Notes: generated by a model from the letters alone, not told the origin. DNA of 64,000 nt from Prochlorococcus sp. MIT 0701 (GCF_000760295.1 NZ_JNBA01000027.1:1-64000); one strand, 5' to 3'. Counted from the stretch's first letter, positions 11,670 through 39,767 are shown. A program made the numbers and translations.

Positions 11670-11936
11670 CCAAGTCTGACAACGCTGCTTGGAGGAAGGA
11701 CAATTGAATTATCTACATTCTTTCCCTGATGTCAGAAGAGCAACTCAAAGCATTCCTTGAAAAAGTCAAAGCTGACACCAGCCTTCAGGAGAAGCTGAAA
11801 GCAGCTGCTAATTTTGATGCAGTTCTTGCGATTGCGAAAGAGGCTGGGTTTATTATTTCTGCTGATGAAATTAACCAAGCTCAATCCGAACTTTCAGAAG
11901 AACAACTTTCAGAAGAAGAGCTGGAAGGCGTGGCTG
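11505..11936. repeat. Copy 1 of the duplicated mpg-5'/promoter/procA-leader block
   Basis: The first 55 codons of mpg, the 59-bp divergent intergenic region and the leader half of the precursor gene match the block at 12756-13166. The mpg parts differ at only four of 55 residues. Similarity stops where the precursor leader ends (VAG), so the cores are unrelated. Confidence 0.8.
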
Positions 11937-11986
11937 GGAGCTGGAAGGCGTGGCTGTCTTTCAGACAGAAAATTTGTTTTTATTAA
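11729..11986 (+). CDS. Prochlorosin-type lanthipeptide precursor with Nif11 leader (probably frame-disrupted core)
   Basis: An 85-residue peptide whose first about 69 residues are a Nif11-type leader ([25 protein letters not shown], then ELSEEELEGVAG), as in ProcA substrates of the class II lanthipeptide synthetase ProcM. In this frame only 16 residues follow the leader (SWKAWLSFRQKICFY region), with one cysteine, a poor lanthionine substrate. A 19-bp sequence is tandemly duplicated exactly at the leader/core junction (11918-11936 and 11938-11956). After it, the +1 frame stays open to 12137 and encodes three cysteines. The annotated ORF is therefore probably a mutated form of a longer precursor. 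No lanM gene is in the window, so modification would have to act in trans. Confidence 0.8.
   Translation: MSEEQLKAFLEKVKADTSLQEKLKAAANFDAVLAIAKEAGFIISADEINQAQSELSEEQLSEEELEGVAGSWKAWLSFRQKICFY
11918..11956. repeat. 19-bp tandem duplication at the leader/core junction
   Basis: GAGCTGGAAGGCGTGGCTG occurs at 11918-11936 and again at 11938-11956 with one base between. It covers the ELEGVAG codons at the end of the leader. The period is 20 bp, which is not a multiple of three, so it changes the downstream frame. Confidence 0.9.
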
Positions 11987-12359: not shown

Positions 12360-12661
12360 ACCTGGCACCACTGACAACAAAATAGTCATAGCTTTCACCC
12401 ATCTAGTCGTCTAATCCATCCACAAAAAATACAAGGCAGAGCAAACAAAGCCTCAGCTTTCTTTAGTCCTACATCTATTCATATCCCCTCAACGCAACTG
12501 CCAAAACCTTCGCTCCCTATCACCATCACGGATGCCATTGGCTCGTCTAAATCTCAGCGCCACCTGATGCCACTCCTCTGGGATTTGATTGAGCCGAACA
12601 TCAAATGCAAATGGGAGTTGCTGTTGCCCTGGTGAGACCCGTTTCTTCTTGCTTCTGTTGC
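12360..12661. repeat. About 300-bp direct repeat, copy A
   Basis: From the shared CCTGGCACCACTGACAACAA motif to GTTTCTTCTTGCTTCTGTT this block matches 13372-13671 with scattered substitutions. It includes the 3' part of a minus-strand reading frame. The two copies flank the second precursor gene as direct repeats. Confidence 0.85.
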
Positions 12662-12755
12662 TCCTGCTGCTCTGAACCAATCGCTTCAGCATCCTTGAGC
12701 CCCAGTGGCACTTGGCTGCTCCTTTGGCGTGATGGCGATACGTCCGAGATAACGC
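12489..12755 (-). pseudogene. C-terminal fragment of an unknown protein family, copy A
   Basis: This stretch supplies residues 56-143 of a chimeric open frame that starts in the truncated mpg copy. Its end reads [20 protein letters not shown], then an arginine-rich finish and a stop at 12489. The same C-terminus appears at 13501-13671 and, more diverged, near 39190-39290. Differences between copies preserve the protein sequence better than chance, so it derives from a real gene family that I do not recognise. Confidence 0.5.
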
Positions 12756-12920: not shown

Positions 12921-13166
12921 CGAAGTCTGAACAACGCTGCTTGCACAAGAGACAATGAAATGAACGAAGCCCTTTCGCTCAGATGTCAGAAGAGCAACTC
13001 AAAGCCTTCCTGGAGAAGGTCAAAGGTGACACCAGCCTTCAGGAGAAGCTAAAGGCAGCTGCTGATTCAGACGCAGTTCTAGCGATTGCGAAAGAGGCTG
13101 GCTTTAGCATCTCTGCTGATGACTTTGGGAACGCTCAATCAGAGCTTTCTGAAAAGGAGCTGGAAA
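12756..13166. repeat. Copy 2 of the duplicated mpg-5'/promoter/procA-leader block
   Basis: Matches the block at 11505-11936: truncated mpg start, divergent promoter region and precursor leader. It shows how the precursor was duplicated together with neighbouring DNA rather than alone. Confidence 0.8.
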
Positions 13167-13351
13167 GCGTGGCTGGTTCCGGCGGGCTGGCGAGTGTGCT
13201 AGGTATTTGTACGCGCGGGCGGGTCGGGGTTGGTTGCCAACATAACCTATCTGCATTGGAGAAACGCGCCTTTGGGATGTGCAACGCGCCTTCAACCTAT
13301 AAAACGAGGCCGGGGTGTCCGGGGTATGCCCAACATATGCGGGGTAAGTAA
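12983..13351 (+). CDS. Prochlorosin-type lanthipeptide precursor with long four-cysteine core
   Basis: A 122-residue precursor. Residues 1 to about 66 are the Nif11-type leader ([41 protein letters not shown]). The core of about 55 residues starts near [12 protein letters not shown] and holds four cysteines (ICT, VGCQ, GMC, GCPG) plus six Ser/Thr, enough for several lanthionine rings. It ends basic (QHMRGK). ProcA cores that I know of are usually about 13-32 residues, so this one is long. Cleavage probably follows the VAGSGG region, as double-glycine-type leaders do. A synthetase and exporter must be encoded elsewhere. Confidence 0.85.
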
Positions 13352-13371: not shown

Positions 13372-13671
13372 ACCTGGCACCACTGACAACAAAATAGTCA
13401 TAGCTTTCACCCATCCAACCGCCTAATCCATCCACAAAAAATACAAGGCAGAGCAAATAAAGCCTCCGCATTCTTTAGCCTTACATCTACTTATATCTCC
13501 TCAACGCAACTGCCAAATACTTCGCTCCCTATCACCATCACGGATGCCATTTGCCCGTCTAAATCTCACCGCAACCTGATGCCAGTCTTCTGGAATTTGA
13601 TTGAGCCGAACATCAAATGCAAATGGGAGTTGCTGTTGCCCTGGTGAGACCCGTTTCTTCTTGCTTCTGTT
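13372..13671. repeat. About 300-bp direct repeat, copy B
   Basis: Second copy of the 12360-12661 block. It begins 20 bp after the second precursor stop and ends at the 3' end of the DUF481 gene region. Confidence 0.85.
13501..13671 (-). pseudogene. C-terminal fragment of an unknown protein family, copy B
   Basis: The minus strand encodes [19 protein letters not shown] then EDWHQVAVRF and an arginine-rich end, stop at 13501, almost identical to copy A. The open frame extends to 13746, but those extra codons are merely antisense-frame bases of the DUF481 gene. No start codon belongs to the fragment itself, so it is a remnant. Confidence 0.6.
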
Positions 13672-13684
13672 TCTTCTAGAAGAA

Positions 13685-32526: not shown

Positions 32527-33147
32527 CTACCCCAGTTTCTCACTAGCGGCAATACTAATGTCATAAGAGATACTCCACCTTGCCAGCTTTCCTTCGTATA
32601 CAGTCACTGAATGCGGCAAACCAGCAGGAAAGATCACTAAGTCAAACGGCTGAGGTGATATTTTAGTAATCAATGCAGGGAATTCAATCGACTCAGAATC
32701 GATTTTAGGTATATTAGGAAGACTAGGCCTATCGACATGAAAGATTAGGTTGCCACCCGCATCATTAAAACATCTCAAGTAAAATACAGCAGCCAATACA
32801 GCATTAACATGCGCATGTCTCTTTATCGAACGGTCTTTTCTCGTTATAACAGGCCAAGACTTTTGATGAAACAAAGCCATTTGGCTGATATTATATCCTT
32901 GGTCTTGAAGATATCTAATTGAAAGCTTTTCAACTTCAATTATAAGTCAGTTAAATTGTTCTAGCTTATGCAAATGAGCCATGCCTCCATTTTGATCCCA
33001 AAACTATTTATTAGACTTATCGCTCCTATCTTGAAGATTTTGCATAAAGCCATTCATCTTCTTCAGCTCTGATTCAGGTGGCGAAAGAAGAGCCTTAGCG
33101 ATACTAAACCCAGGGACTGATAAGTATTCGAACTGAGGATCAATCAT
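32527..33147 (-). pseudogene. 2OG-Fe(II) oxygenase family gene with two nonsense codons
   Basis: Reading from an ATG at 33147, one frame covers 207 codons to the stop at 32527 but is broken by TAG at codon 48 (33004-33006) and TGA at codon 67 (32947-32949). The frame is otherwise maintained, so the mutations are recent. The intact distal part has RHAHVNAVLAAVFYL, AGGNLIFHV, FDLVIFPAGLPHSV and ARWSISYDI, the layout of the TIGR02466-like putative 2OG-Fe(II) oxygenases. Translation could restart at the ATG at 32880 for 117 residues, but the N-terminal third would be missing. Confidence 0.7.
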
Positions 33148-33417
33148 GGCTTACTAAAATGATGATCAATGATTTAAAACTTAAAAGCATTAGGCAAGGC
33201 GTAGAAGTATTGCTCATATCGATAAATCCTTAATCAATAGCCTTGATCACAACTAGGGTTAGACTAGATCATTCGGCTGGCATGACTGCAATTGTCAATA
33301 ATTTAGTACATGTTGTGCTCCTATGCAAAACAGCACAGCCACAAGCAGTCATACATAGCGCATTACATCTACAGTATAATTTTGATTCTACGATAAGGCT
33401 ATTGCCTCTTCAAGCTG

Positions 33418-33705
33418 ATGACAGGAATGAATAGCACCCCTGAATCATGCACTTACAAGCGCAATCCTAAAGCTATTTTCACTGATCTTGATGGCGAGAC
33501 AGCTTTATTTCAGTCCGAAACCTGTGACTACCTTATCCTTAACTCGACAGGTTCTGAAATCTGGCAACTACTTAAATCACCATTAACAGCAAATGAGATT
33601 TGCGATAAATTAACAGATGCCTATGAGGTTGATCCTGCAAATTGTAGAAGTGAAGTTGATGCTTTCTTAAGCATCGCCATCGAGAAAGAAGTTATTCAAT
33701 CCTGA
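33418..33705 (+). CDS. PqqD-like peptide-binding protein
   Basis: A 95-residue protein with the PqqD fold pattern: early strands (AIFTDLDGETALFQSE), the LNSTGSEIWQLL helix, then PLTANEICDKLTDAYEVDP and a C-terminal helix with a final VI strand. PqqD-like domains bind leader peptides in many ribosomal-peptide pathways (RiPP recognition elements) and also occur with HPr-kinase-like proteins. The start may be ATG 33418 or 33427. No obvious precursor peptide lies beside it. Confidence 0.82.
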   Translation: MTGMNSTPESCTYKRNPKAIFTDLDGETALFQSETCDYLILNSTGSEIWQLLKSPLTANEICDKLTDAYEVDPANCRSEVDAFLSIAIEKEVIQS

Positions 33706-33939
33706 CATCATTCAATTTACATTATCAAGGATTATTGAGTTGGCAGCCTTCATCTAAGCCATTGCAAGCGTGACATCTTACGATCACAAAACCGATACTA
33801 GTGCTTTGCCCCCTATTCAGGAAGCACAAAGTGCCGCACATTCACATCTATACAATCAATCGCGATGCCAGTAAATCTTATCTCCTGACAGTTTATAGTT
33901 ATGTACATCTCTCAAAATGCATACAGCTTAGTATTGGGC

Positions 33940-34482
33940 TTACAATACATAGGTCGTTTTCAAAGGCAGGCACCAAACCTCAAAACCGTCATCATCTATA
34001 CCCAACATTCGGAATCCTAACTTTATAAAGTATTTACGAATGAAAGAATTCTTCAATCTGGGGTTTATATTTTTGCTGATCAGATAACTGCAACGATGAT
34101 CACGATCAACTGAAGCAGCAAGAAAGTTATCCACAAAATTCTGGCACATACGATTCGCCAGCCTTGCAGAACGGCAGCTCTTAACTATATACATTCGATA
34201 AATATAAGCATGGCTGCCTAGGTTCTTTGATCCGTCTAACCGTCGCAATAATACGAAAGCAATACCTACTATTAATCCTGACGCATCTCTAGCAATTACG
34301 GCAGGCTGACGACGTGGAGCACCCCTTTTTTTTTCACCAGTCTTTGAACTTTTATCTACAATGCCCCCCCCCCTTATCTCCTGTTGAATTGAAGCCTGAT
34401 GCTTTTGCCAAAAAGTCGATAACTCTTCAAATAGTTGTGCACTGGCTCTGCCAAATACAAACTCAACCTCACAATCAGCCAT
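33940..34482 (-). CDS. GNAT-family acetyltransferase-like protein
   Basis: A 180-residue protein from the ATG at 34482, which overlaps the sulfotransferase stop by 8 bp. It has GNAT-like layout: helix around AQLFEELSTFWQ, strands AVIARDASGLIVGIAFVLLRR, YIYRMYIVKSCRSARLANRM where the CoA-binding loop would be, and a C-terminal IKLGFRMLGIDDDGFEVW strand. The usual Q/RxxGxG/A loop is not clear, so activity is uncertain. The coding strand carries ten consecutive G (34364-34373) and nine consecutive A, making it prone to slippage. Confidence 0.7.
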   Translation of the reverse strand: MADCEVEFVFGRASAQLFEELSTFWQKHQASIQQEIRGGGIVDKSSKTGEKKRGAPRRQPAVIARDASGLIVGIAFVLLRRLDGSKNLGSHAYIYRMYIVKSCRSARLANRMCQNFVDNFLAASVDRDHRCSYLISKNINPRLKNSFIRKYFIKLGFRMLGIDDDGFEVWCLPLKTTYVL

Positions 34483-35359
34483 CCTGTGGCCCTCTGTAAT
34501 CAAAACGTTTCATCACCACATCTAAGCTACTGGCAAGTTTTTGACGTTGTTCAAAGCTTAGCTTTTCTGCGCCTTCACCCGTTCTTCCTGAGCGAAAAAA
34601 ACGCTCACATCCTTCCGGTTTTTCCGAAAAACCTCCTACTTGATCCTCTAGCTTTTTGAGCCGATCAATCGACGTATTTTCCAAGGCCTGGTTCACCAAC
34701 TCCGGCTGATTAGGCAAGTCAAGAAACTTAGCCAACTCCAAAAAAGTCTCAGAGCCTTTGGCCAGCATATCTTCATAGCGCATTACCAACACGGGAATCT
34801 GCTGTTGATCCACCCACGAAATCACATGCTGCCCCCAACGCCCCATGTACTGTCGAACTTGATGGCCGCCATGTCGATCCGTCATCACTAACCCAGCCAT
34901 CGGATCAAGCAGAAACTCTACGCATCTGGCCAGATCCCATGAGAAGAAATGGCTTAAGGAAACGGCCACATCCTCAGGGTGGCGCATGATATAAACAACA
35001 CCTTTGCAACCTGATGTACTCACCACAGGCCTGCCCATCGAGTCTGGGGAGCGGAAGGCATCATGCACCTTATGAAAGCGCTCGCCTTCGGCAAACAACC
35101 AAGCCTTTTCACCCGCTCTCCCCCGAAGAGGATCCAGCTCAGCAAAACTAAGGTCGCAAGTATTGATGCCCAACTGGTCATCTAGCCAATGACGGGAAGA
35201 CGCAATCGAGCCGGTTTCAACATCTTGATTGAGATTGAGCTCCCCCTCTGCATCCTCTTCCGAAAGACGCAGCAACTCAGTAATGAATACCCGGCACCAT
35301 GTATTTCCTGATTTCGGATACGACGCCAGATACCAATAACCGTTGTCTTGATCAGTCAT
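34475..35359 (-). CDS. PAPS-dependent sulfotransferase
   Basis: A 294-residue enzyme from the ATG at 35359. The 5'-phosphosulfate loop YPKSGNTWCRVF sits at the N-terminus and the 3'-phosphate region VVYIMRHPEDVAVSLSHFF is in the middle; a YEDM and RKLxxQVGGF/SEKPEGCERFFRSGRTGEG acceptor/C-terminal region follows. Architecture is that of the cytosolic sulfotransferase family. The ATG overlaps the stop codon of the HPr-kinase-like gene and its own stop overlaps the GNAT start, so the three are coupled. The acceptor cannot be predicted. Sat at 3-4 kb is part of the pathway supplying its donor. Confidence 0.9.
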   Translation of the reverse strand: MTDQDNGYWYLASYPKSGNTWCRVFITELLRLSEEDAEGELNLNQDVETGSIASSRHWLDDQLGINTCDLSFAELDPLRGRAGEKAWLFAEGERFHKVHDAFRSPDSMGRPVVSTSGCKGVVYIMRHPEDVAVSLSHFFSWDLARCVEFLLDPMAGLVMTDRHGGHQVRQYMGRWGQHVISWVDQQQIPVLVMRYEDMLAKGSETFLELAKFLDLPNQPELVNQALENTSIDRLKKLEDQVGGFSEKPEGCERFFRSGRTGEGAEKLSFEQRQKLASSLDVVMKRFDYRGPQDG

Positions 35360-36387
35360 CACTCCTCCTCTGGGGATTCTGCCTGGCTCTGCTTAGGTGC
35401 CAGTGAAACTGGATCTTCAAGGCTCTTATCCTTCAGCACTTTCTTCATCAGCTTCACACCATCCGGAAGTGCTAGACGATGCACTTCCACGCGCTTGACT
35501 AACGCTGCAGCTTGAATGAACAACTGCTGTTCCTTGCCCATACCACGATAAAAGCGGGGCTGAAAAGCCTGGTTACGCAGCTGCAGCAAGGCAACTTGCT
35601 GCCTGATTACTTGCCAGGCACAGATCGCATCAGGATCATCGGCACCCTCTTCCTTGTCTTTGACCTCTTCCTTGTTCTTGTCTTTTTGTTCTCGACGGTT
35701 GAGTCCGTAGATCACCGCCAACGGCATTGGCTCAGAAACCACAGACAGGTCCGGAGGCAAGATTGCGTAACGCTTCAATGCCTTACGTACCAAAGGTAAC
35801 TGCTGCCAATCGAGCATCAACTCCTCTGCCGCGTCATACCACAACTTGAGCTGCTGCATTCCTGGCAAGACCATCCCCTGCTCATCAATCACAGTGAGCT
35901 CACTACTCAACAATTGCCATCCCTGCTGGTGCAAACACCATGCCAAAGTCGATTTGCCAGAAGCCGGAGAACCCAACAACAGCAAAGCCTTTCCATCCTT
36001 AACCAAAGCTGTGCCATTTAGCACCAAAAAGCCACGCTGAATCAGTAAGGCACCAAGGGCACTGCTAACAAGAAAAGTACGCAAATCTCGATCACTAACG
36101 CTGTCATCCCATCTCTGCCAACTAATAAATCGACCTTCATGGGCACGAAACCAACCAATCCCCTCCAGTTCTAATCTCCAATCTGCCGGAATCATTTGCA
36201 AGCTAGGTGTACTGTGATCACTTGCGTTAATGGCAGGCCAGTCTTTCCTACTTGAGGCAGCGATGATGACCTGATCAGGACCCGCCTCAGCCTTCACTTC
36301 TGTACGCAACTCAGGCAGTTGAATATCACTAGATATCTGCAAGCCAAAAGCTGTGTAGAGATTTTTGTGGTAATTAGATTCACTCAT
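35359..36387 (-). CDS. HPr kinase/phosphorylase-like P-loop protein
   Basis: A 342-residue protein resembling the HprK-like kinases found in lasso-peptide and other natural-product clusters rather than carbon-control HprK. An N-terminal domain (1-120) is followed by LNGTALVKDGKALLLLG and the P-loop SPASGKSTLAW (about 140-150), then QLLSSELTVIDEQG, where related proteins usually have an SDD motif. A highly charged insert (EQKDKNKEEVKDKEEGADD, about 222-241) interrupts the C-terminal part. It is first in the overlapping trio with sulfotransferase and GNAT. Confidence 0.78.
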   Translation of the reverse strand: MSESNYHKNLYTAFGLQISSDIQLPELRTEVKAEAGPDQVIIAASSRKDWPAINASDHSTPSLQMIPADWRLELEGIGWFRAHEGRFISWQRWDDSVSDRDLRTFLVSSALGALLIQRGFLVLNGTALVKDGKALLLLGSPASGKSTLAWCLHQQGWQLLSSELTVIDEQGMVLPGMQQLKLWYDAAEELMLDWQQLPLVRKALKRYAILPPDLSVVSEPMPLAVIYGLNRREQKDKNKEEVKDKEEGADDPDAICAWQVIRQQVALLQLRNQAFQPRFYRGMGKEQQLFIQAAALVKRVEVHRLALPDGVKLMKKVLKDKSLEDPVSLAPKQSQAESPEEE

Positions 36388-36642
36388 TACCAGCCACGCA
36401 TAAAGGCATGGTGTCCTTTCTCATTAAAGCTAGCATCCAATCGATGATACGTTTTTCTAGCACTAAGCGAGCAGATCAAGCTCGATCGCGGGGAAGCCTT
36501 TTGGGCTTGTAAATACTAATAGAGAAATACCATTTGCTGATACTCGATTCAATATAAGTTATTCGTTACTACATCACTAGCGATCAATTTCTCATTTCTA
36601 AGCAATACCTCTATCACCTCAACTAATCTTACATAGACTATA

Positions 36643-37389
36643 TTAGTGATGGTAAAGGCTGAGAGCCCTCAGCAGCAGAACAGTCATCAGGCTTAGTCCG
36701 CTGAGAAACCACCACAGGCGCGTGGACGAAGGAGAGGGAATCTCTTCGCGGAACACCGAGATCAACAACCCGCCGCCAAGGAAGGCTGTTGCGATGGCAA
36801 GAGTGAGATCTGTGATCGGAGGAAGTAGAGCCGCATGAGCGAAGCCCAAGACAACGGCAGCTGTTCCCAACCAACGAAATCGACGACGGTAGACCAGCGG
36901 ATGATGCCGAGCCATCGTTCGATCCGCCAACAGCACGTGTGCTGAAATTGCCACCGTGAACAGAAGACCATATAGACGGCCTGTGGTGATCAGTGCGGGC
37001 AGGGTGTAGGCATACAAGTAGTTAATCAAGGCAAAGGCAAGTCCGTGGACCAAAGCAACCATTGAGTTATTTTTTTTGCTCTGCCAGGAGATCACATCCA
37101 TGCTGAAAAAGAAGGTCACTCCTATAAGTGCAACTAAAAACAAAAATGCCTCGATAACCGGCGTCGTCGCGAAAGTCTTGATACCTTGAGCTTCGGAAAG
37201 TGCCTTGCCACCAATGGCCAGCTCCGGCAGGAGATGCAGGAAGACATAGGCAACACCTGCCCCTCCTCCTAGAGATGCCCAGCATTGTTGTTCACTTTCC
37301 GGTCGCGCTGCGACAACACCTGCCAACCAATGGCATCCAGCGATGGCACTTACGCAAAAGCAAGCAATAATCCAAGACATAGACGCCAA
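36643..37389 (-). CDS. Polytopic membrane protein, distantly ZIP-like
   Basis: A 248-residue protein with about seven to eight helices. The segment GGGAGVAYVFLHLLPE, a His/Glu in a helix, and the C-terminal LAIATAFLGGGLLISVF remind me of ZIP-type metal transporters, but the usual HNxxE metal motif is not seen; instead there is VALVHGLAFALINYLY. Function is therefore open. It stands alone between the tailoring cassette and the degraded region. Confidence 0.65.
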   Translation of the reverse strand: MASMSWIIACFCVSAIAGCHWLAGVVAARPESEQQCWASLGGGAGVAYVFLHLLPELAIGGKALSEAQGIKTFATTPVIEAFLFLVALIGVTFFFSMDVISWQSKKNNSMVALVHGLAFALINYLYAYTLPALITTGRLYGLLFTVAISAHVLLADRTMARHHPLVYRRRFRWLGTAAVVLGFAHAALLPPITDLTLAIATAFLGGGLLISVFREEIPSPSSTRLWWFLSGLSLMTVLLLRALSLYHH

Positions 37390-37758
37390 AATAAATGGAT
37401 AACCTTGACAAAGATCCTTACTTGCAATCCTTTACTTGTCCACAAATTAGCAATAAAATTAACTGGAAATTGTGAGTTCATGCACGATAAGCATTTGTTA
37501 CTTTGCTTGCATGAAGGCAGACAATCAGATGCCTACAATTAATGTAATATAATAGCAGCAAAAGTGTGATTCAATAAAACTTATAGCCACTATATAGTAA
37601 TCTGTTTAAGCCAAATATCCCAAACCCTAGGCAATCACTGTTTGCTCTGAGCGGTCAAGTACTCTGATGATTTTTACTATCAACCATGCGAGTATGCGTG
37701 GCGATGCATTACAACCCAAACATCAAACCACAATTCCTTCATAGATAAGCAACTAATC
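37390..37758. other. Non-coding AT-rich stretch
   Basis: About 370 bp with dense stops in every frame and no recognisable gene remnant. It separates the ZIP-like gene from a series of pseudogene fragments. Confidence 0.5.
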
Positions 37759-37875
37759 ATGCAGCATTCCGTTCGCCCCTCCTTAACGCCTACTGGCACT
37801 GCTGCTCTTGCATTAGCTCAACCTCCGATGCAGCCTGTTTCTGCTCGAGGAGACGGCAGTGCAATGCTCAGCGAG
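37759..37875 (+). pseudogene. Remnant of the secreted beta-barrel-type gene (copy 1)
   Basis: From an ATG at 37759 the frame reads SVRPSLTPTGTAALALAQPP then MQPVSARGDGSAM, clearly related to the signal-peptide region at 38650 (SLRLSLSLTYVAALALTNSP then IQPVAAQEKEGSA). Homology then ends and the GNAT remnant begins on the other strand. Confidence 0.5.
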
Positions 37876-38080
37876 ACTGCAAAGGCAAGCCCCAAAGCTT
37901 GTAACACAGATGATTAATCCCGAGCATTCTAAATCCAAGGCGAGAAAAATATATTCGCATCGAAGACCTTCTCAAGCCAGGGTTAGCATTCTCCGCTAAT
38001 AAATAACGAGCACAGGGGTCACGAGAATCCAAAGCGGCTTTAAATCCCATCAGGGAAGTGCGATAAAGGAGATCGCACAA
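37868..38080 (-). pseudogene. GNAT acetyltransferase remnant (C-terminal part)
   Basis: The minus-strand frame (DPCARYLLAENANPGLRRSS then YFSRLGFRMLGINHLCYKLW) aligns with the last 60 residues of the gene at 33940-34482 (CSYLISKNINPRLKNSF, then KLGFRMLGIDDDGFEVW). The N-terminal two thirds are deleted. Confidence 0.75.
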
Positions 38081-38084
38081 CTTT

Positions 38085-38490
38085 AAAAATTGGTACGGAC
38101 CTCATCAGGGTGACGCAGTATATAAAAAATCCCTCGACAACCTTCTGTACTCACAACAGGCCTGCCCCTGGAGTCTGGTGAGCGAAATGCATCATGCACC
38201 TTGTGAAAGCGTTCCCTTCTGCAAAGAGCCAATCTTTTAAACTAGCTCGCCCTCTTGATAGATCTAACTCAGCAAAACTTAGATCGCATGAATTGATGCC
38301 CAATTGATCATCTAACCAATGCCTTCCGATACGATTCCACCTGTATCTAATCTATGAAGATTAAGCTTCTTCTCTTACAGCTTGCCTGAAGGCCGGAGCA
38401 ACTCAGTAATAAATAGCCTCTACACTAGGTATTTCCTGATTTCGGATCAGAGGCGAGATCCCAATAGCTGTGATCATTTGTCACCATCAT
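38085..38490 (-). pseudogene. Sulfotransferase remnant (N-terminal part)
   Basis: Starting at an ATG at 38490, the sequence reads YWDLASDPKSGNT followed by TAG exactly where the intact gene has Trp in YPKSGNTWC. Scattered frameshifts follow, and homology ends just after GIFYILRHPDEV, matching the 3'-phosphate region VVYIMRHPEDV. The remaining half is deleted and joined to the GNAT remnant, in the same gene order as the intact cassette. Confidence 0.78.
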
Positions 38491-38602
38491 TTTTCTGCTT
38501 AGATACAGCCTTACGCATAGATTCCTATGCCACTTAACTCATGAGCAAGCTTAAAAGATCAATTACTGCAGTTCACATGGCCTGATAGCTGCAACCAAAA
38601 AC

Positions 38603-39100
38603 ATGCCAGATAATGAGTGCCCTTTTGAGCGTTCAATCCAAGTGCAGAGTTCCCTTCGTCTCTCCTTATCGCTTACTTATGTTGCTGCTCTTGCTCTAAC
38701 TAACTCTCCCATCCAACCAGTAGCTGCTCAAGAGAAAGAAGGCAGTGCAGATGATCTCGGCGTGAAAGAGATCAACCTTAAAGATGCTGTGCAGTTCAAC
38801 TGGGTTTTTCAAGGTGCCTTGCAAGGAGCAGGCACACCGAATCAAGCAGGGATTGGTGCCTTTCTGCCGATTGCTGTTGGTGAGAACAGCGCCTTCTTCA
38901 TTAATGCTTTAGCCAATGCCAACTTCTCTGACTACGACGGCACCAGCAGCAGCATCAATACATAAGTCGCCGGTACCACCATCTCCACCTCAACCCGCTT
39001 TGGTTATCGCTGGCTGAATGGTGATCGCTCTTGGATGTTCGGGGTGAATGCTGGCTATGACAGCCGGCCAATTAATAACTGCAACCAACAAACCTATTGA
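38603..39100 (+). pseudogene. Truncated secreted outer-membrane beta-barrel-type protein
   Basis: A signal peptide (SLSLTYVAALALTNSPIQP, cut near VAAQ) leads into NLKDAVQFNWVFQGALQGAG, FLPIAVGENSAFFINALANA and NFSDYDGTSSSINT, then a TAA at 38963-38965 interrupts. The same frame continues VAGTTISTSTRFGYRWLNGD and MFGVNAGYDSRPIN before ending in unrelated sequence near 39100. The strand pattern suggests an inverse-autotransporter- or porin-like barrel. A 120-residue product could still be made. Confidence 0.7.
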
Positions 39101-39189
39101 GCCGATAAAAATTTGCGGGAAGTGGCCGAGATTCTAATACTGTATAGAATGATCCTAATGGGCATTTAGTCTTCCACTTCTTTTAGTCC

Positions 39190-39290
39190 TTAGAGTTATA
39201 TTTTCGCAAATAGCTTCGTGGAACTTCATTGCAACTGGATACCACTCTTCTGGGCTTTGCTTGAGGCGACTATCGAAACAAAAAGAGATC
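39190..39290 (-). pseudogene. Diverged third copy of the unknown C-terminal fragment
   Basis: On the minus strand FCFDSRLKQSPEEWYPVAMK aligns with [20 protein letters not shown] of the fragments at 12.5 and 13.5 kb. The stretch is short, has no start codon, and lies in decayed sequence. It ties this island to the prochlorosin locus. Confidence 0.5.
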
Positions 39291-39398
39291 AAGATTCCTT
39301 GCTAAACTTTATTTTTCTTGCTTCTTGCTCTTAGCTTTCCATCCCACCATTTGAACGTTTAACGACACCAATCAGACCTCTTTTATTGTCTACAGGCT

Positions 39399-39767
39399 TT
39401 ATTGCTTTCTAAGGCCAGGCAACAGCAAAAACCCTATTGCAAGATGAATAAATACTCCTGGCCACAAAAGAACACCAATTACATCTTGGCTCACGCCAAT
39501 AGACATTAATAAAATGCCTACAGCAATGTTATAACCACAAAGAGATTTCCTCGAATTTGGCATCGGTGCATGGCTTGATGCTTCCCAGCAAGCAAAACCA
39601 AGAGCAATAATTGCCAGTGCAAATAATCTTGCAATACCTACCAGTTCATTATCTATCGAATGGCCAAAAAGTAGTGTGCAAAATCTAACAGGCATAACGA
39701 AAGCAAAAATCCCGCCAAGGACTTCAAAGCCTGCAGAGAATCTCAATAGTAGAAAACTGCGCCTCAT
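39399..39767 (-). CDS. Small integral membrane protein
   Basis: A 122-residue protein with four predicted helices (FEVLGGIFAFVMPVRFCTLLF, IARLFALAIIALGFACW, YNIAVGILLMSIGVSQDVIG, GVFIHLAIGFLLLPG) and a basic C-terminal LRKQ. The four-helix layout is seen in many unnamed bacterial membrane proteins. No function is inferred. Confidence 0.65.
   Translation of the reverse strand: MRRSFLLLRFSAGFEVLGGIFAFVMPVRFCTLLFGHSIDNELVGIARLFALAIIALGFACWEASSHAPMPNSRKSLCGYNIAVGILLMSIGVSQDVIGVLLWPGVFIHLAIGFLLLPGLRKQ

Follow-up and report, generated by a model that had tools for sequence, protein, structure and literature searches.

Four clustered genes in a 64,000-nucleotide stretch of DNA from Prochlorococcus sp. 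MIT 0701 (NZ_JNBA01000027.1:1-64000, hereafter the window) probably form a tailoring cassette that is guided by a RiPP (ribosomally synthesized and post-translationally modified peptide) recognition element (RRE) and modifies hypervariable protein tails ahead of their display at the cell surface. The tails belong to a multigene family of predicted outer-membrane barrels, designated F5, and the proposed substrates are those members whose linker carries a tryptophan motif (W class). We hold as evenly balanced the wider proposition that a whole outer-membrane autotransporter serves as the RiPP precursor, with the leader motif in the pore linker and a hypervariable disulfide core on display, while the RRE cassette adds sulfate, and perhaps acetyl groups, to a library of tails encoded across the genome, which are exchanged as modules beside a transposase. 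An earlier interpretation made from the nucleotide sequence alone (the sequence-only reading) had proposed a peptide, protein or glycan as the target of the cassette. A peptide is the probable target, and the likely substrate, dispersed surface barrels with hypervariable tails, had escaped that reading.

Composition and conservation of the cassette

The PqqD-like RRE (95 residues) is encoded on the plus strand at 33418-33705. Three convergent genes on the minus strand encode a GNAT-fold acetyltransferase-like protein (187 residues, 33940-34503), a 3'-phosphoadenosine-5'-phosphosulfate (PAPS)-dependent sulfotransferase (295 residues, 34475-35362), and an HprK-related P-loop protein (342 residues, 35359-36387). 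According to the open reading frame (ORF) positions, the GNAT and sulfotransferase genes overlap by 29 bases and the sulfotransferase and HprK-like genes by 4 bases. The ORFs, the family matches and a structural model of the GNAT protein bear out the sequence-only reading in its placement of all four genes and in the overlap of three of them on one strand. Each cassette protein is a member of a known superfamily.

The survey comprised 201 genomes of the family, followed by 179 further genomes (380 in total). Among the first 201, the HprK-like and PqqD proteins were found largely in the same genomes and in the same places, the co-occurrence that the sequence-only reading had expected of a real cassette. 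The compact type of PqqD was present in 18 of the 380 genomes. The gene order HprK-sulfotransferase-GNAT on one strand, with PqqD convergent, was found in every complete compact locus fetched, and an intact PqqD accompanied every complete cassette. Since the four-gene order was kept in every complete compact-type relative, chance could be ruled out. Judged by this conservation, the four genes are a fixed, co-inherited cassette in marine Synechococcus/Prochlorococcus-type genomes.

A scan of genome contigs with a single sulfotransferase sequence as the query returned one locus only. No B2 peptidase (Transglut_core3) or C macrolactam synthetase (Asn_synthase) was seen in the compact loci, and no SpI-like peptidase, NTP-transferase, or MsbA-like transporter was constant beside the compact cassette. 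The absence of a cyclase and a radical SAM enzyme noted by the sequence-only reading holds at the cassette, and extends to peptidases.

Association of the cassette with a linker motif

A constant fifth gene, which the sequence-only reading had proposed to seek by a neighborhood survey, was found outside the coordinates it had given: an intact or broken F5 gene lay close to all 19 assessable cassette copies, that is, those in which the contig continued. In genome G075 (L054:8038-17723), a tandem duplication comprises HprK (second copy partial), sulfotransferase, GNAT, PqqD, a REP-associated tyrosine transposase (RAYT) and F5; because F5 was duplicated together with the cassette, it belongs to the repeated unit.

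The F5 linkers fall into two classes, which either carry KKxW[EQKD]xP[TV][ILV]xxL ahead of a conserved block, NRDVRVHD, or lack the W motif. Examples of the W class are KKKWENPTINAL and KKWQTPVIQAL, as well as the W-linker peptide KKKAWQKPTIQALSESVKNRNIRVHD, and the gene at L051 11033 has the motif in its WxxPxL form. Within the first 201 genomes, the W-linker pattern occurred in 12, all of which carried the cassette. The resulting prediction was tested on the 179 further genomes, which contained five new genomes with the compact-type PqqD. Four of these had the same W pattern, and the fifth, G316, had a W linker followed by a divergent block, found by reading, as the pattern misses the block variants RDIKVAD (G316) and RNIRIHD, both of which were read by eye. 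Over all 380 genomes, 17 had both features, one had only PqqD (G044, where the contig ends), one had only the W motif (G288), and 361 had neither (Fisher 2e-27, with kinship ignored). Fifteen genomes that have F5 matches and lack the cassette gave no PF05402 match. Contrasts within five genera agreed with the link, G288 excepted. In the genus of the window itself, cassette loss and the absence of W-class barrels coincide: the genome of the window (G000) has an intact cassette and nine W-class F5 genes, all outside the window, where the F5 copies are broken; G029 has lost the cassette and has only non-W linkers among the F5 copies read; and G071 has a decayed cassette and no intact F5.

On the tree of F5 barrels, the W motif was gained or lost about ten times, so the W class is not one barrel lineage. 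Some W-class F5 genes lay on a different contig from the cassette or at a distance of hundreds of kilobases, and still tracked its presence.

The PqqD protein of the window is a candidate partner for this motif. It is a discrete RRE of the B1 type of lasso clusters (PF05402, E 8e-16), and it passed its Pfam cut-off, as did the sulfotransferase; its best NCBIfam match, lasso_PqqD_Bac, was below the cut-off. Its best match in the PDB was PbaB1, a WxxP-binding RRE (9x90, E 1.2e-6), compared with E 0.039 for the Y-binding LppB (9x8z), and no second PqqD was found in its own genome. Popov et al. 2026 (PMC13381572) used a crystal structure, pull-down assays and NMR to establish that paeninodin-type RREs bind WxxPxL leaders, and in PbaA the W lies 15 residues ahead of the core. 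In F5, a count of 15 residues from the W arrives at the conserved RDVRVHD block. We infer that PqqD binds the WxxPx[ILV]xxL linker. We dropped the idea that Asp7 of RDVRVHD closes a lasso ring, the block being equally conserved in genomes without PqqD.

The cassette could instead modify an unrelated small precursor, a linear or lasso-like RiPP encoded elsewhere in the genome, in which case its link with W-class F5 genes would stem from hot spots common to both and from their horizontal transfer together. PqqD and HprK do belong to families of the lasso and LPP type (see below), short precursors lie beside the distant homologues, and cassette and F5 are often found together. Yet no conserved small ORF accompanied the compact cassette at the loci read, and the gaps at 33148-33417 and 36388-36642, where the sequence-only reading had hoped for one, contain none. 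Moreover, W-class F5 genes remote from the cassette follow its presence, and the motif, which matches the RRE ligand itself, has repeatedly appeared and disappeared across the tree of barrels. We therefore regard a separate small precursor as unlikely.

Predicted fold of the F5 proteins and variability of their tails

F5 matches were found in 42 of the 201 genomes, and G000 alone has ten scored members plus further candidates. The proteins, of about 310-420 residues, consist of a signal-like N-terminus, a barrel, and the NRDVRVHD block, after which similarity ends abruptly. The predicted model has 12 strands and resembles intimin (Z 23.4) and invasin (Z 22.7) well ahead of the next best match (18.2), with the N-terminal 12-stranded barrel and C-terminal passenger of that fold. 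The Pfam IAT_beta gathering score was not reached: 20 of 50 members matched weakly, the first with 14.6 versus 22.3 bits. On the predicted fold, F5 proteins appear to be outer-membrane barrels of the inverse autotransporter type. As the structural similarity extends as far as residue 310 of the model, where RVHD ends, the block would sit at the pore exit and the tail would be the passenger.

The 86 distinct tails read are 2-96 residues long and share no sequence. The number of cysteines was even in 74, odd in three, and zero in nine, whereas their composition and length predicted 32 even tails; when each cluster was represented by a single tail, the ratio of even to odd was 54:2. Such parity would be expected if the tails were disulfide peptides that leave the cell interior, and it is a sign that they are translated, are under selection, and have an oxidizing destination.

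Two F5 genes of one genome (L145 7081 and L148 6391) share 98.9% identity in the 699 bp that precede the tail and 98.2% in the 787 bp that follow, while the tails between these flanks (99 and 72 nt) are unrelated; tails are therefore replaced as modules. A near-identical tail, CESGEWLAPNFFACWD and CDDGEWLAPNFFACWD, occurs at L061:7333 and L181 (around 9822) in two genera on barrels that are only 64% identical, so tail modules also travel. A RAYT gene or remnant lies convergently about 270 bp downstream of 30 of 76 F5 copies, and upstream of nine. RAYT is a suspected agent of tail exchange. At L051:12415, the junction DNA GTGCACGAC occurs again within the tail and directly behind it, a hint that the junction undergoes slippage or recombination.

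W-class tails are richer in Lys and Thr and more basic than the others (mean charge +2.0 vs. -0.7, p 3e-5; p 0.006 without the commonest tail type). A longer tail type, CKxFxPxxG...HCNPGxPxAxxxGWEP, recurs at L131, L134, L138, L144, L167, and other loci, and was found only in cassette-bearing genomes among those read.

Short, cysteine-paired, hypervariable C-termini beyond a conserved junction also resemble the cores of secreted peptides and polymorphic toxins. The tails might thus be weapons or signals that are cut after RVHD and released as small disulfide peptides of the microcin or toxin kind, with the cassette serving maturation or self-protection. Inverse autotransporters usually keep their passenger attached, however, no peptidase or immunity gene was constant beside F5 at the loci read, and many tails have just 9-30 residues. 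PADLOC gave no match, for which reason a defense system was also rejected. Release of the tails seems to us improbable, slightly more so than a separate small precursor.

Probable chemistry of the cassette enzymes

Sulfation is the modification most securely suggested by the sequences, because the motifs of the sulfotransferase (Sulfotransfer_1, E 6e-18) are intact. The window protein contains YPKSGNTW, KVH, RHPEDVAVSLSH, and RSGRTG, so that the PAPS-binding and catalytic motifs (5'-phosphosulfate-binding (5'-PSB) YPKSGxTW, the catalytic His, the 3'-phosphate-binding 3'-PSB, and RxGxxG) are all present, as they are in nearly all of the 17 copies scanned. It is also the most conserved protein of the cassette, with 70-77% identity to the window copy across genera.

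Its nearest relatives in the PDB, TEG12 and TEG14 (E 1e-11), act on glycopeptide antibiotics, and both sulfotransferases and GNATs often use glycans or small molecules. The cassette might accordingly sulfate and acetylate a cell-surface glycan or a small molecule, with PqqD as a relic or scaffold. We give this very little credence, as PqqD is intact wherever the cassette is complete, the compact cassette loci have no glycosyltransferase or polysaccharide gene as a constant neighbor, and the co-occurrence of WxxP and PqqD would be left unexplained.

Acetylation by the GNAT is plausible. Pfam and NCBIfam gave no family match for its sequence, while the predicted model (pLDDT 77.5, pTM 0.76) has the fold of the superfamily, the top Foldseek matches being GNATs (2oh1, E 3.5e-6); 14 members were aligned.

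Peptide phosphorylation, the kinase-type modification raised by the sequence-only reading, is doubtful, because the HprK-like protein has lost the catalytic Asp-Asp pair, which is replaced by Ser-Glu in the compact group (SSE) and kept as ADD in the lasso-type group and in HPr kinase 1jb1. Its P-loop GKST (Walker A) is invariant in 16 of 16 aligned sequences, and the profile match to 1jb1 has E 0.0038. HprK_rel_A matches the protein only around the P-loop and below its cut-off (E 4e-13).

Proposed mechanism

The proposed substrate, a W-class F5 protein, would consist of a signal peptide, a 12-stranded barrel, the linker KKxWxxPx[ILV]xxL...NRDVRVHD, and a disulfide-rich hypervariable C-terminal tail. 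Before export, PqqD would bind the WxxPx[ILV]xxL linker, as lasso-peptide RREs bind leaders, and would thereby bring the tail to the three enzyme candidates of the cassette (sulfotransferase, GNAT, and HprK-like protein). The fold and the cysteine parity suggest that the protein would then take the Sec and BAM route, that disulfides would form, and that the barrel would thread the modified tail to the surface. The tails themselves would be exchanged as modules between constant flanks, as the sequence pattern shows, possibly by RAYT. As genomes without the cassette keep F5 genes with non-W linkers, tailoring would be an optional addition to a display system of broader occurrence.

Several observations weigh against this mechanism. 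The linker sits in the pore of the folded barrel, so PqqD binding must precede export, and the HprK-like protein is without the Asp-Asp pair. G288 has a W-class F5 gene, and PqqD was not found in it. W-class F5 genes and the cassette often lie side by side, and part of their co-occurrence may therefore reflect joint transfer; a sign test on the gene tree, which offers few independent pairs, gave four to five pairs with the link and one against (p 0.375). The window PqqD has Asn and Glu at the positions of Gly42 and Gln79, which favor Trp in PbaB1, and so may not be Trp-exclusive; a G42N/Q79D mutant still bound its W ligand (PMC13381572). Finally, no acceptor residue was invariant across the tails read, and the difference in tail charge could be due to descent.

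Comparison with known systems

The nearest relatives of the cassette by sequence are RRE tailoring genes of the lasso/paeninodin type, which agrees with the relationship drawn by the sequence-only reading. Like paeninodin-like lasso clusters (RRE B1, HprK-like kinase, NTP-transferase, B2, C, ABC transporter), it has a PqqD-type RRE nearest to PbaB1 and an HprK-related partner, and its proposed substrate carries WxxPx[LIV] with the W 15 residues ahead of a conserved block. Unlike them, it has no B2, C, transporter, or NTP-transferase, adds a sulfotransferase and a GNAT, and has lost the Asp-Asp pair of HprK, while the [YW]xxPx[LIVFA] motif sits in a barrel of 310-420 residues rather than in a short precursor, short precursors being found in a distant group only.

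In this group (L062, L063, L065), the HprK is about 40-43% and the sulfotransferase about 59% identical, and the clusters hold Transglut_core3 (B2), Asn_synthase (C), an ABC transporter, GT2, and NTP_transf_5. Candidate short precursors have WxxPxI leaders (EKLEWVTPKISLM, LKLEWQTPEIEII, MRWEPPVIHRM), which parallel the W-class linkers of F5. These sequences suggest paeninodin-like lasso clusters with an added sulfotransferase and point to the ancestry of the cassette. The three clusters (L062:7011-17934, L063, and L065) are cyanobacterial, with the sulfotransferase embedded and a candidate WxxPxI precursor such as EKLEWVTPKISLMDAGDTSGSGKKF; their products are possibly sulfated lasso peptides.

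LPP, a cyclase-less RRE/HprK family of Bacillota (PMC13381572), likewise combines an RRE with an HprK-like protein, no cyclase, and precursors with variable C-termini. The cassette differs in that its vicinity is free of a signal-peptidase-like leader peptidase, an NTP-transferase, and an ABC transporter, the motif has W instead of Y, and the proposed precursor is a barrel.

With inverse autotransporters (type Ve: intimin, invasin), F5 shares the N-terminal signal and 12-stranded barrel, the pore linker, and the C-terminal passenger (Z 23). It differs in that the passenger is a small hypervariable disulfide peptide and not a set of Ig-like domains, some linkers carry an RRE motif, and Pfam IAT_beta is matched only below the cut-off. 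A precedent for modification before export is provided by AIDA-I/Aah and TibA/TibC, in which a dedicated cytoplasmic enzyme glycosylates the autotransporter passenger; there a sugar is attached rather than the sulfate or acetyl group proposed here, no RRE is involved, and the passenger is not hypervariable. Neither a paper on inverse autotransporters in Synechococcus nor one on an RRE cassette acting on an inverse-autotransporter passenger was found in PMC, with subscription papers and preprints outside the search.

F5 also resembles the prochlorosins (ProcM/ProcA), with many dispersed genes, a constant N-terminal part, a hypervariable Cys-rich C-terminus, an adjoining TnpA_REP transposase, and one enzyme set acting in trans. 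Prochlorosins differ in their short soluble precursors and the lanthionine chemistry of ProcM, with no barrel and no PqqD. The F5 tails would add a second hypervariable peptide family to the prochlorosins, and one transposase family adjoins both.

If the proposed mechanism is true, machinery of peptide natural products is used for cell-surface display, which would connect three so far separate fields: RRE-guided tailoring, type Ve display, and the fast variation of surface peptides among very abundant ocean phototrophs. It would give an orphan cassette a testable substrate, supply a ready-made display scaffold for modified cyclic peptides, and open a new place to study how cells vary what phages, grazers, and neighbors see.

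The island in the window and its surroundings

Comparison with G029 by blastn placed the cassette and several remnants on a 6.7-kb island (32663-39406). G029 is without the island, and there the flanks, at 92% identity, are separated by about 180 bp, while G071 has decayed PqqD and GNAT genes at the site. Beyond the cassette, the island holds the signal-peptide end of an F5 barrel gene (37759-37854, plus strand; tblastn 53% over 32 residues, E 5e-5), remnants of a second GNAT copy (37871-38101, minus strand; profile E 9e-22, model positions 114-183) and a second sulfotransferase copy (38086-38484, minus strand; tblastn 42% over 135 residues, E 9e-24), and a broken F5 inverse-autotransporter-like barrel gene (38555-39097, plus strand; F5 profile E 3e-44 and 5e-23). 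The latter retains only the first half of the barrel, with an in-frame stop near 38963 and the linker and tail missing; a convergent RAYT remnant lies downstream of it (39212-39331, minus strand; 45% over residues 208-248, E 4.6e-4).

Between the cassette and the remnants, a gene for a multi-pass membrane protein, ZIP-like by eye (36643-37389, minus strand), is not conserved beside other cassettes. The 2-oxoglutarate oxygenase pseudogene that the sequence-only reading had included is real as a fragment (PF13759, 32527-32880). Its membership in the cassette was rejected, since almost none of the other cassette copies has it as a neighbor and its end persists where the island is missing.

The window also contains two prochlorosin-type (Nif11-leader) precursor genes (11729-11986 and 12983-13351, both plus strand); behind each lies the 3' remnant of a convergent RAYT gene (12516-12752 and 13531-13677, both minus strand). 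An association of lanthipeptide genes with TnpA_REP has been described by Laurenceau et al., as cited in PMC10783134. The same transposase family thus flanks both the prochlorosin-type genes and the F5 tails.

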